From Warburgia ugandensis (Eukaryota; Streptophyta; Magnoliopsida; Canellales; Canellaceae): 64,000 nt of DNA. The notes beneath the pieces were generated by a model. That model was not told the DNA's origin. It saw only the letters and a list, made by a program, of their open reading frames with translations, and searched no databases. Within the stretch, counting starts at the first letter, position 1, and each line of letters starts with the position of its first letter. Both the position numbers and the translations under genes were made by a program. This document shows positions 25,519 through 62,188 of this stretch, piece after piece. Location of the stretch: assembly GCA_035236585.1 (NCBI GenBank), contig CP141132.1:58005880-58069879 (forward strand). Reading direction: 5' to 3'.

Positions 25519-26095
<577 letters not shown>

Positions 26096-34849: not shown

Positions 34850-35661
<812 letters not shown>

Positions 35662-37814: not shown

Positions 37815-37897
<83 letters not shown>
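37815..37897. repeat. (GA)n microsatellite, about 83 bp
   Basis: Uninterrupted GA repeat. Confidence 0.98.

Positions 37898-42198: not shown

Positions 42199-42280
<82 letters not shown>

Positions 42281-47985: not shown

Positions 47986-47988
<3 letters not shown>

Positions 47989-48054
<66 letters not shown>
47989..48054. repeat. (GA)n microsatellite, about 66 bp
   Basis: Uninterrupted GA repeat inside the Athila-like element, downstream of gag. A shorter one lies at 47469-47485. Confidence 0.98.
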
Positions 48055-51000: not shown

Positions 51001-53931
51001 AAAATTCTCCATGTGATATACTATGTTAGTAAGACACTCAATGATGCCCAACTTAATTATTTCACTACAGAAAAAGAGTTGCTGGTAGTTGTTTTTGCCC
51101 TAAATAAGTTTAGCTCTTACTTATTAGGATCTAAGATCATTGTCTATTTGGACTATACATCTTTAAAATATCATCTTTTAAAGAAGGATGCCAAAGCTAG
51201 GCTAATTTGATAGATGTTATTGCTACAAGAGTTTGATATGTAAGATTGGGATAAGAAAGTTTCCGAAAATGTTATAGCAGACCACTTATTCAGATTAGTT
51301 ATGGATTCTACTAGGAAGAATGTGCCTATAATAGAAACCTTTCAAGATGAACAATTATTGCCTATTTTTTAGTTGCCTTGGTATGTAAATATAGTCAATT
51401 ATCATATCACTGGTCAAATGCCTAATCACTAGTCTAAACAATAGAGGAAAAGATTTAGTGCTGAGGTTAGATACTTTAAAACATTTGTTTAAGTACTGTC
51501 CTGATCAGGTCATAAGAAGATGCATACCAGATAATGAAAATCATAAAATCATTTCCTTTTGTCATGACCACGGACGTAGGAACCATTTCAGTTCTAGAAA
51601 GCTAGTTGCAAAGATTTTGTAGTGTGATTTTACTAGCCCACCATTTTCAAGGATTCACATGCTTACTACATAACATGTGCTAGATGTCAACGGTTAGGGA
51701 GTATAGGAAAAACAAATATGATCACCTTAAACCCCATTCTTATCATTGATCCTTTTGATGTTTGGGGCATTGATTTTATGAGACATTTTTCTCACTCTTT
51801 TGGTTATCTGTACATCCTTGTGGGAGTGGACTATATGTCTAAGTGGGTAGATGCCATACAGTGTAAAATCAATGACCATAAGAGGGTGGTCAAGTTCTTA
51901 AAGGAAAATATATTTGTGCACTTTCATACTCCTAGGGCCATAATTAGTGATGGGGGAAAATACTTTTACAATAGTATTTGAGACCTTAATAAAGAAATAT
52001 GGTGTTACCCATAAAATTATAACCCCTTATCATCCTCAGACTAGTGGATAGTTAGAAGTGTCAAATAGGGAGATAAAGTGAATTTTAGAAAATATAGTTA
52101 ATTCAAATCAGACAAACTGTTATTTGAGACATAGTGACGCTTTATGAGCCTATCATACTGTATACAGGACCCCTATAGCCATGTCCCCCTATTGCTTAGT
52201 ATATGGAAAGGCCTGCCACCTTCTAGTAGAACTTGAGCATAAAGCACATTGGGTTATTAAGAAGCTTAATTTTGACTTAGATACTACTGGAACCAATAGA
52301 AAATTCCAACTCAATGAGTTGGATGAGCTTAGGAAAGATGCATATGAGTCAGCCAAGATATACAAAGACTACATGCAAATCAATCACGATAGACACGTCA
52401 CGCGAGTCCTTCACCCATGACAAAAGGTTCTTTTGTATAATTCTAGATTGCATTTATTTCTTAGAAAACTTCAATCTTAATTGGCTGGACCCTACATAGT
52501 ATGTACTGATTGCTCTCATGGGGCCATCGAGATAGAAAAGGATGGAGAGATATTCAGAGTAAATGAGCAAAGGTTGAAACCTTATCTAGTGTTAATAAAC
52601 ACTAAAGTAGAGGAGATATTGTTAGAAGAACTTGTATACCATGACCCACCTTAACATGTCTCATGGAACCTACATCAATCATAAGATCTACATTCATCAT
52701 TGCATTTTATCAAGGCATCGTACACCTGGCTGAAGATGTTAAACTTATCCCTCATTGGGAGGCAACCAATGGTTTTTAAAGTCTCATTGTTTTACATTAC
52801 CCATTTATCATATAGGAGTCATATGTTTCAAAACATAGGAGGCAATGCCCAGTTCAGGTTGGGGTTATAGTTATGCATGAGATTTCTGAGTTTTCTTCTA
52901 TTTTTTAAAAGAAAAAAGGTTTTAAGGTCAAATTTCCTTTACTATGATGAGAATAGGATTTTTAGAATCTTCATATTTCTCCTAATTTAAACTTCTTAAT
53001 AGACATGCATATGGTTAAATCTACATTTTATTCATGTCCTAAAGTATTTTATGAAAGTTAAAATCTCAACAAATAATTACATATAGTACAATCTAGACTA
53101 ATAGATGGTTATGACTTAGTGACCCTGAGATAAATCAATGGAGACTTATATACGCAAGTGAGTTTTGGAGACTATCATCTTTTTTAGGGTTATAAATAAT
53201 TTCATATTTTCTTCAGCGTACATTAACTTTGAAAGATCTTAATATCTTTGTTTTGTTTTGAACATTTATTGAATCAAATAGGCCTTAAGAAACCTAAGAA
53301 ATGATATAGGCCATCCTTGTTCTAGGCCAGAGACATAAAGCTTATCTAGTATATTATACCTCTAGTGAGACCTTTTAAATCTCTTGGTAAGCCTTTTTTT
53401 TTTTTTTCAAAACCCAATTTACTTCAACCTAGAAGCTTAGTTAAATATCCATTACCTATCATTAAAAAATGAGTAGAAATGGAAGAAAAAGTTCAAAAAG
53501 GGCAAAAGTTTAAGAAATGAAAAATATCAAAGTATTTATAATAAAAAAATCCTTCAAAGAAATACAAAGAAAGTAAAAGATAAATATATAAAAAAGTGAA
53601 GAGAAAGGAAAAATAGAAAAGATATTCATTTCAGTACATTCAAAAGTAAAGTTGTCCAACATTCAATTTAGACCTCTATTCAAATTTGAAACTTTGAATC
53701 CCATTACCTTTTCTTGCAAAACCATTCCCAAGACTACATTTCATCCTATCTAAAGACTTGTTGATCTTAAGGTGGAAGGTAGCCTTAATGCGGATATAAA
53801 TATTTAGGAATTAAGGTGAACTACCCTTGTTGGTCTTGGTAATAGCATCTATTCTTAGGGACCATAGTTTTTTGTCTCATCTATGCTTAAAAAAATATGT
53901 GAACCATTAGTATCTTTGGATTCAGTCACAT

Positions 53932-54204
53932 TGACACACCCCACCCACCGTGGGGTCCACAGTAACAATATTGTCCGCTTTGGGCCCACTGGGCCCGCAC
54001 GGCTTTGTTCTCACCCCGGCTTCCCAGGGTAAAAGGCCTTGTTACTGTGAGGAGTGTTCCCACTCCTTATCAACCAGCCCAGCTCCCCTCTCCAGGCGGT
54101 ATGGGACTAACTCTCAACCGTCACCCCCCTCGACCTTCGCCGCTTCGCTGCTTCGCCGCCCCCCTTGAGGTCACGGTGCCTCACAGTACCTCACGATACC
54201 TCAG
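53932..54204 (-). repeat. Left TRIM: downstream LTR copy
   Basis: This is near-identical to 54314-54586 at an offset of 382 bp. In its own (minus) orientation it starts TGAGGTA and ends GGGGTGTGTCA. Confidence 0.9.
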
Positions 54205-54313
54205 CCGGCAAGGGCTAGATCTCTCCCCCTTAGGGGACACACGCCCTCGTGTGCCGAGGCACGCATGCGGTTAGCCACCCATCCCCACGAGGAGACTGGC
54301 TCTGATACCAAAT
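54205..54313 (-). promoter_or_regulatory. Left TRIM internal region with initiator-Met primer site
   Basis: Only 109 bp. On the minus strand TGGTATCAGAGCC (54310-54298) is the primer site, followed by GGGTGGCTAACCGCA and, before the downstream LTR, a purine tract AAGGGGGAGAGA. The first part is shared with the right TRIM. Confidence 0.8.
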
Positions 54314-54586
54314 TGACACACCCCACCCACCGTGGGGTCCACAGTAACAATATTGTCCGCTTTGGGCCCACTGGGCCCGCACGGCTTTGTTCTCACCCCG
54401 GCTTCCCAGGGTAAAAGGCCTTGTTACTGTGAGGAGTGTTCCCACTCCTTATCAACCAGCCCAGCTCCCCTCTCCAGGCGGTATGGGACTAACTCTCAAC
54501 CGTCACCCCCCTCGACCTTCGCCGCTTCGCTGCTTCGCCGCCCCCCTTGAGGTCACGGTGCCTCACAGTACCTCACGGTACCTCAG
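54314..54586 (-). repeat. Left TRIM: upstream LTR copy
   Basis: Partner of 53932-54204. Its outer end lies within three to four bases of the right TRIM's first repeat. Confidence 0.9.
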
Positions 54587-54589
54587 CCG

Positions 54590-54841
54590 TAGGCGGGAGA
54601 TGGCTACCGTGCCAAGATGGCCTGAGGGTTGGCCTTGTGAGGGGACCCAAGATGGTCTGAGGGCGGGACGCAGGAGAGTTAGTCCCACATCGGCTAGGGG
54701 GGTTGATGGGCCTGGGTTATAAGGGGGTGTTCTCCCTTCACTGCATAGACGCGTTTTCCCCTGGACGCGGGGGAAGGACCAAAACCCGTGCGCGTGCGCA
54801 CGGGACAATATCTATGCTGGGGGCCCGACGGGGCTGTGACA
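54590..54841 (+). repeat. Right TRIM: upstream LTR copy
   Basis: This is near-identical to 54931-55182 at an offset of 341 bp and ends CTGTGACA. Unlike the left TRIM it does not start with a clear TG. It begins TAGGCGGGAGATGG, which resembles a purine tract. Confidence 0.85.
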
Positions 54842-54930
54842 GACTGGTATCAGAGCCAAACCCCGACCCCGAGGGTGGGTGGCTAGCCGCACCGTCGCTC
54901 GTGTGGTGACACACGGGGGCGTGTGTCCCG
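54842..54930 (+). promoter_or_regulatory. Right TRIM internal region with initiator-Met primer site
   Basis: About 89 bp. TGGTATCAGAGCC lies at 54845-54857, followed by GGGTGGCTAGCCGCA and GGGCGTGTGTCCC, both with counterparts in the left TRIM. Confidence 0.8.
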
Positions 54931-55182
54931 TAGGCGGGAGATGGCTACCGTGCCAAGATGGCCTGAGGGTTGGCCTTGTGAGGGGACCCAAGATGGTCTG
55001 AGGGCGGGACGCAGGAGAGTTAGTCCCACATCGGCTAGGGGGGGTGATGGGCCTGGGTTATAAGGGGGTGTTCTCCCTTCACAGCATAGACGCGTTTTCC
55101 CCTGGACGCGGGGGAAGGACCAAAACCCGTGCGCGTGCGCACGGGACAATATCTATGCTGGGGGCCCGACGGGGCTGTGACA
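54931..55182 (+). repeat. Right TRIM: downstream LTR copy
   Basis: Partner of 54590-54841. It ends CTGTGACA immediately before the CACAT target duplication. Confidence 0.85.
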
Positions 55183-55649
55183 CACATAAAGAGAGAATTT
55201 TGTTTGATCCCTTTTTCTCTAAGAGCTTTATTTCTGAGTGTATTCTAGCAACAAATTGAGGTCAAAACATCATTCCAATGGAGTATAAGCATGTCTGTTT
55301 AGAAGTCTAGATTATATAGTCTATACTCACACTGCACTCTGAGATATAACTTAATAAAATAATTTTGGTATATGGGTAACTTGTGGAATTTCTCATTTAT
55401 CTTTATTAAGTTGTTAAAGCTAGTAGAGTACTAATGGATGATAATTCTCTAAGATAAAACAAAGGACTTAAACTTAATAAATTTTGTGTATATAGTAATT
55501 ACAAACCGTCATGAGTAACTTCGGGGGTTTAAGGGCATGTTGCATATGCTAAATGCAATCATGAGTACTTATGAGAAATGACAACCACTTTTGTTTTCAT
55601 GATTTTTTGCATATTTTTCTTAGGACTAACAAAATGCTAATTGGGGGTA

Positions 55650-62131: not shown

Positions 62132-62188
<57 letters not shown>

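Follow-up and report, generated by a model that had tools for sequence, protein, structure and literature searches.

What event places two small long terminal repeat (LTR) retroelements head to head inside a single target-site duplication (TSD)? The question is raised by a locus in a 64,000-nucleotide stretch of Warburgia ugandensis contig CP141132.1 (58005880-58069879; 1.12-Gb assembly of 14 contigs), hereafter the window. At this locus two different small elements resembling terminal-repeat retrotransposons in miniature (TRIMs), A on the minus strand (53932-54589) and B on the plus strand (54587-55182), lie with their U3 sides together, and the pentanucleotide CACAT flanks the pair and neither half alone, as a sequence-only reading of the window had noted; the chance of an exact 5-bp match at a fixed place is about 1/1024. 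Most of the relatives read elsewhere in the genome share this mirror build, which points to a family with a single end usable for insertion.

Each half of the 1251-bp composite is about 0.6 kb long and consists of short direct LTRs around a short internal region, with a primer-binding site (PBS) beside the 5' LTR and a polypurine tract (PPT)-like sequence before the 3' LTR. The LTR pair of A differs at 1 of 276 aligned bases and that of B at 2 of 255, so the insertion looks young. In both A and B the 14-nucleotide PBS, TGGTATCAGAGCCA, is of initiator-methionine type, lies three bases from the LTR end and is presumably a site for the initiator tRNA (tRNA-iMet). The sequence-only reading had described these near-identical repeats and separate primer sites correctly, together with the opposite orientation of the halves; the spacing of about three bases that it placed between them was wrong, since the halves overlap by CCG with no gap, and the short inverted pair that it saw at the outer ends, although present, consists of nothing more than the U5 ends of the two outer LTRs. 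The two elements align with each other across LTR and internal region. Judged from joints in other copies, the LTR of A would start at TCTAGCCC and that of B at TGGCTACC, and on this reckoning the 5' LTR of A in the window lacks about 12 bases of U3 while the 5' LTR of B carries 14 extra bases of PPT-side sequence. No open reading frame (ORF) of at least 150 amino acids was found in the composite stretch by an ORF scan only, no protein search being made, and no further A or B fragments were found in the 64-kb window at E 0.001.

Insertion of the pair as one unit, the central proposal of the sequence-only reading, was borne out by the single TSD, by the target site and by the same order with its own TSD at other loci. 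The flanks of the composite, joined across one CACAT, match a dispersed repeat, and 39 of 40 scored matches to it run uninterrupted at 81-84% identity, the remaining match being the window's own right flank; these correspond to the empty site with one CACAT that had been envisaged. The repeat has 3984 first-look candidates in the genome.

A search of the genome gave 2147 candidate places, of which 40 were scored (326 matches). Sixty loci (numbered with the prefix L) made up the sample, namely 39 best-scored loci, 20 clusters from a list of exact U5 ends and the window. Overlapping copies L001-L008 were excluded, none of the 60 was dropped, and incomplete or ambiguous loci stay in the counts. 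The U5 list was made with the last 22 bases of the B U5 end, with up to 2 mismatches allowed; the first 100 of its 728 sites, all exact, form 47 clusters, 31 of which were read in sequence (11 among the 39 and 20 more). An exact 5-bp TSD around two outward-facing U5 ends was noted at 41 of the 60 loci, the window included, and agreement at 4 of 5 bases at another 3, whereas random re-pairing of left and right flanks gave 0.77 matches among the 54 loci with both U5 ends. The inverted order with its own exact 5-bp flanks is therefore present at 40 further loci of the sample, as well as at the A-type place L069 (TSD AGGTT). The latter was read after the 60, together with L070 and L071, from a gypsy-type U5-plus-PBS pattern with 409 sites, the first 100 of which include A and B copies and other families. 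Composites with an exact TSD span 115-4027 bp, and 20 of the 41 exceed 1,500 bp. For eight of the 41 (L009, L011, L022, L027, L034, L036, L037 and L043) an uninterrupted target paralogue was found within the DNA read for the sample, at 75-97% identity; for example, the empty site of L009 was seen in L017 (91% over 158 bases).

Strand switches in the 60 loci were outward in 58 cases and inward in 6. Nearly all of the 39 scored loci are arrays in which the minus copies stand to the left of the plus copies, and many arms contain LTR-internal-LTR tandems. The remaining 16 U5 clusters, known by strand order alone, all have minus before plus. Among the first 100 B U5 sites, neighbours no more than 5 kb apart were minus-plus in 28 cases, plus-minus in 1 and same-strand in 24, the last of which fit tandem units. 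As a control, the gypsy family beside L018 was listed in the same way, and pairs within 10 kb among the first 100 of its 200 U5 sites were same-strand in 13 of 13. Individual loci departed from the simple pattern: L017 was broken by a later insertion, and L045 and L065 finish on one side in a cryptic end resembling U5, and their exact TSDs, read by eye, are CCAGG and CTATA respectively. L065 has ordinary polarity and one LTR, and its left end is internal, at TGACACACGG, which resembles the A U5 end.

Ordinary insertions were sought by comparing each outward U5 end with each same-strand U3 boundary within 2.5 kb, at shifts of up to 10 bases; only in this test were L069-L071 used. No excess of U3-plus-U5 insertions appeared in the 63 loci, which gave 12 exact 5-mers against 15.2 expected by chance (744 pairs, 15,548 comparisons), and some of these 5-mers are merely the bases beside the PBS of inner LTRs. 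The TSD flanks the composite, and single elements and solo LTRs gave no more than chance-level matches for one of their own. Because single copies thus show no TSD of their own beyond chance, the family is called TRIM-like rather than an ordinary TRIM; its composites fit the inverted form of the arrays known as TA-TRIMs.

The junctions between arms were not shared. Even when up to 3 mismatches were allowed, the genome held a single copy of the window's 28-base junction. Among 58 outward junctions, 18 were overlapping, 3 blunt, 28 held 1-25 bases between the arms and 9 held more; the last were left out of a comparison of the other 49, none of which agreed at 6 or fewer mismatches (four pairs agreed at 7-8). 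Since all compared junctions differ, the composites are made afresh each time, and the idea of one fixed 1251-bp unit that propagates must be given up. In several loci the joined end is the PPT-side U3 end, and in L009 this holds for both arms, the ATCTAGCCC end of A being joined to the ATGGCTACC end of B. Other loci have shortened arms, which in L049-L051 retain as little as 26-30 bases of U5.

The reading preferred here, with a probability of about 0.72, is that of a family that enters through U5 only, in which complementary DNAs (cDNAs) linked by their U3 sides integrate with a U5 end at either side. The family RNA would be reverse-transcribed as usual from the tRNA-iMet site, as the PBS, PPT and LTRs suggest. 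The U5 end of the cDNA would carry an integrase site (TGACACACCCC or TGTCACAGCCCC, written from the outer end inwards) and the PPT-made U3 end (the LTR starts of A and B given above) would not; the U3 end of A lacks the terminal TG/CA, and that of B has TG but is otherwise unlike U5. A single cDNA would thus have one usable end. At least two reverse transcripts, of the same or different subfamily, would then be linked U3 to U3 by error-prone end joining, with short homologies or filler at the joint, and an integrase from an autonomous LTR element would insert the resulting U5...U5 molecule with an ordinary 5-bp duplication. We infer that this integrase reads ends of the TGACACAC/TGTCACAG type and makes no use of the normal U3 end; L065, integrated through an internal sequence that is similar to the A U5 end, is telling in this respect. 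We lean towards a join that precedes integration, because some arrays hold three or more pieces. The inverted molecule that the sequence-only reading took as precursor stands as regards insertion in one unit; an inverted form that precedes integration is not distinguishable by sequence from later joining of U3 ends. A stricter version, in which the U3 integration site has been lost, U5-U5 insertion is obligate and host end joining of at least two reverse transcripts makes a new mirror molecule for every copy, is given an even chance; were it true, a host repair pathway would be a required step of retrotransposition.

Joining might instead follow integration. If one integrase complex inserted the U5 ends of two cDNAs at one target and the free U3 ends were joined afterwards, closing the broken chromosome, most steps would be those of the preferred reading. 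Neither the TSDs nor the outward order nor the variability of the U3 junctions would differ, and nothing more would be needed than use by integrase of two separate ends, which it can do in concerted integration in vitro. Such co-integration would, however, require a transient double-strand break every time, and arrays of at least three joined pieces (L026, L028 and L041) are easier to make beforehand; it is considered rather unlikely. The likelihoods attached to this explanation and to the next overlap with that of the preferred reading and do not sum to one. Mirror molecules could also arise during reverse transcription, by a switch of the growing strand to an opposite-sense cDNA in snap-back or intermolecular fashion. 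The short overlaps at junctions are in keeping with such a switch, as is the position of 4 of 73 B-LTR junction ends at 167-170, near the presumed RNA start. Nevertheless, several junctions lie at complete PPT-side U3 ends, as in finished molecules, filler between arms is not readily explained, and simple snap-back fails at the window because A is paired there with B; strand switching is accordingly held to be doubtful, and less likely than co-integration. A cut-and-paste element, or one like a miniature inverted-repeat transposable element, with U5 ends as terminal inverted repeats and a 5-bp TSD, would suit three units of only 115-128 bp (L048-L050) and the single arms of 26-30 bp, but PBS, PPT and LTR pairs are present and the interior would be copied along, yet no junction is shared among the 49; this explanation is very improbable. 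Two independent insertions or an assembly join, for which nothing speaks beyond the caution of the sequence-only reading, are excluded for practical purposes by the exact TSD around the pair at 41 of 60 loci, the lack of a single-copy TSD excess, the empty sites and the direct order of the gypsy control.

Several observations weigh against U5-only entry by pre-joined molecules. Six strand switches are inward, three of them inside arrays (L017, L030 and L045); eight of the 60 loci (L053, L054, L055, L057, L059, L061, L062 and L063) run past the sequence read, L057 and L062 reaching its edge before any second end, and the A-type places L070 and L071 likewise extend beyond it. L029, L044 and L056 are without a TSD, and the left end of L040 is odd. 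In 28 of 58 junctions the 1-25 bases between the arms are assigned to neither, and 9 of 58 hold more. The microhomology at the junctions, which speaks for end joining (10 of the 21 seamless junctions overlap by at least 3 bases, where chance would give 5.5%), may be overstated by BLAST ends. The U3 of B begins with TG, and its failure to integrate is deduced only from absence; an autonomous integrase partner was not found, nor its lineage. The 39 loci chosen by score favour arrays, unlike the 20 taken from the exact-U5 list, and the evidence comes from a single genome assembly. Finally, the 41 exact and 3 near-exact TSDs were counted around U5 ends, so that the count by itself cannot exclude other ends; the ordinary-insertion test is a separate check.

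If the preferred reading is true, a retroelement persists with one dead end because the cell welds its cDNAs together, end joining is part of its transposition cycle, and each insertion records one joining event. The loci would then also form a natural collection of integrase ends, in which arms down to about 26 bp still integrated, and the family would give rise to palindromes in the genome. Inverted TRIM pairs such as that of maize, discussed below, would also be explained. The features of the window locus are collected in Table 1.

Table 1. Parts of the A-B composite, in window coordinates
Feature	Coordinates	Strand	Remarks
Left TSD copy, CACAT	53927..53931	.	flank match and empty site
A 3' LTR; U5 end TGACACACCCC (on +) forms the composite's left outer end	53932..54219	-	LTR start judged from joints in other copies
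Polypurine tract of A, AAGGGGGAGAGA, lying upstream of U3	54220..54231	-	putative assignment
A internal region; PBS TGGTATCAGAGCCA 54297-54310, 3-nt spacer 54311-54313	54232..54313	-	
A 5' LTR, about 12 bases short at U3 end	54314..54589	-	
U3-U3 junction, CCG common to both halves (3-bp microhomology)	54587..54589	.	unique in genome
B 5' LTR; extra PPT-side sequence 54587-54600, LTR proper 54601-54841	54587..54841	+	
B internal region; 3-nt spacer 54842-54844, PBS TGGTATCAGAGCCA 54845-54858	54842..54932	+	
B polypurine tract GGCGGGAGA	54933..54941	+	putative assignment
B 3' LTR; U5 end GGGGCTGTGACA is the right outer end	54942..55182	+	LTR start judged from joints in other copies
Right TSD copy, CACAT	55183..55187	.	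flank match
B LTR promoter-like motifs: upstream sequence element (USE) TCCCACATCG 54683-54692, 25 bases, TATAAG 54718-54723, TTTT 54754-54757	54683..54757	+	consensus from the available part of PMC11961915

Both B LTRs of the window (54683-54757 and 55024-55098) and those of L001-L071 carry the USE of plant snRNA genes, TCCCACATCG, then 22-26 bases, TATAAG and, 30 bases on, TTTT. The spacer between USE and TATAAG was 24 or 25 bases in 138 of 175 occurrences (overlapping loci L001-L008 included), and a spacing of about 25 is that of RNA polymerase III (pol III) promoters of the USE-TATA type. The A LTR has a degenerate version of the arrangement. In the available part of PMC11961915, USE-TATA spacing is described as a major determinant of pol III recognition, and the family RNA may be a pol III transcript.

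Long LTR variants were noted in L021, L022, L024, L026, L037-L039, L053 and L054. They consist of U3-R, about 150-360 bases of U5-like repeats with CAAGATGGGTTGAGGG motifs, and R-U5, and a duplication of about 10 bases (B 166-175, A 168-177) may mark a very short R.

The locus L018, which also counts against the preferred reading, has an A arm joined to a fragment of gypsy-like sequence, and no far end of the locus was found. In L018 (2086-4801) and L068, with labels given by eye, an A arm lying in a copia-like reading frame is fused to a truncated piece of gypsy-like integrase, beyond which come an LTR of about 3.3 kb and an ORF resembling gag; L018 is possibly a TRIM-gypsy composite. As a candidate for the autonomous partner this gypsy was rejected, its U5-end pattern with the expected TSD matching nothing nearby; no second gypsy end near L018 was present among the first 100 of 200 U5 sites, and BLAST of the element against A and B showed the PBS alone in common. 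A CCCAAGATGGTAAACCCTGAGGG minisatellite in the gypsy LTR of L068 (about 519-1130) is similar to a motif of the TRIM U3 that the long variants also contain, and BLAST found no homology beyond the PBS between this LTR and A or B. Long dinucleotide repeats without interruption are numerous elsewhere in the window; most are AG/GA/CT and one is AC (1552-1631, 25544-25637, 34853-34948, 37815-37897, 42201-42278, 47988-48054 and 62133-62185).

Among known systems, one likeness is to retroviral integration with one defective end, in which one end is integrase-competent and host repair acts at the other. The two cases share the single competent end; the retroviruses are laboratory mutants whereas the present case is a whole natural family. 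The comparisons that follow refer to the available parts of the cited papers. Cassandra resembles the family in its tandem LTR-internal units and in a pol III promoter within the LTR (PMC7215508), but its arrays are tandem and concatenated, and inverted pairs are not mentioned in what is available of that paper. The Cassandra LTR carries 5S rRNA (PMC4717578); the stretch 53700-55400 gave no match to 5S rRNA, nor to the hammerhead ribozyme of a retrozyme, up to E 10, and is accordingly placed with neither. Four matches obtained from Rfam all belong to unrelated families and lie far below gathering scores. Wukong likewise forms tandem multi-LTR TRIMs, but its LTRs are usually in the same orientation and recombination between elements was invoked by the authors (PMC4528315). 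In PMC11899658, on tandem LTR elements, the word "inverted" occurs in the reference list alone. No account of a family inserting almost only as inverted composites was found in searches of the open-licence PMC literature for head-to-head, inverted, tandem or aberrant LTR composites. Close in structure are the TA-TRIMs, reported in 35 of 43 genomes, in which, as in the present family, small LTR elements form multi-LTR arrays within a single 5-bp TSD; the TRIM size criterion applied there is less than 1,500 bp (Gao et al. 2016, PMC4717578). The legend of Fig. 2 in that paper names an inverted maize TRIM pair with one TSD, CTTCA, and the arrays of that figure were, according to the authors, checked by PCR and sequencing, so the architecture, of which the sequence-only reading knew no description, is not wholly undescribed. 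That reading was thus partly supported: its main point was right, its scope was too narrow, and a precedent exists. Typical TA-TRIMs have the order LTR-internal-LTR, with the inverted pair as one example, whereas in the present family outward inversion is the rule, and it is this family-wide rule, rather than the inverted architecture with its maize precedent, that is the point of interest.

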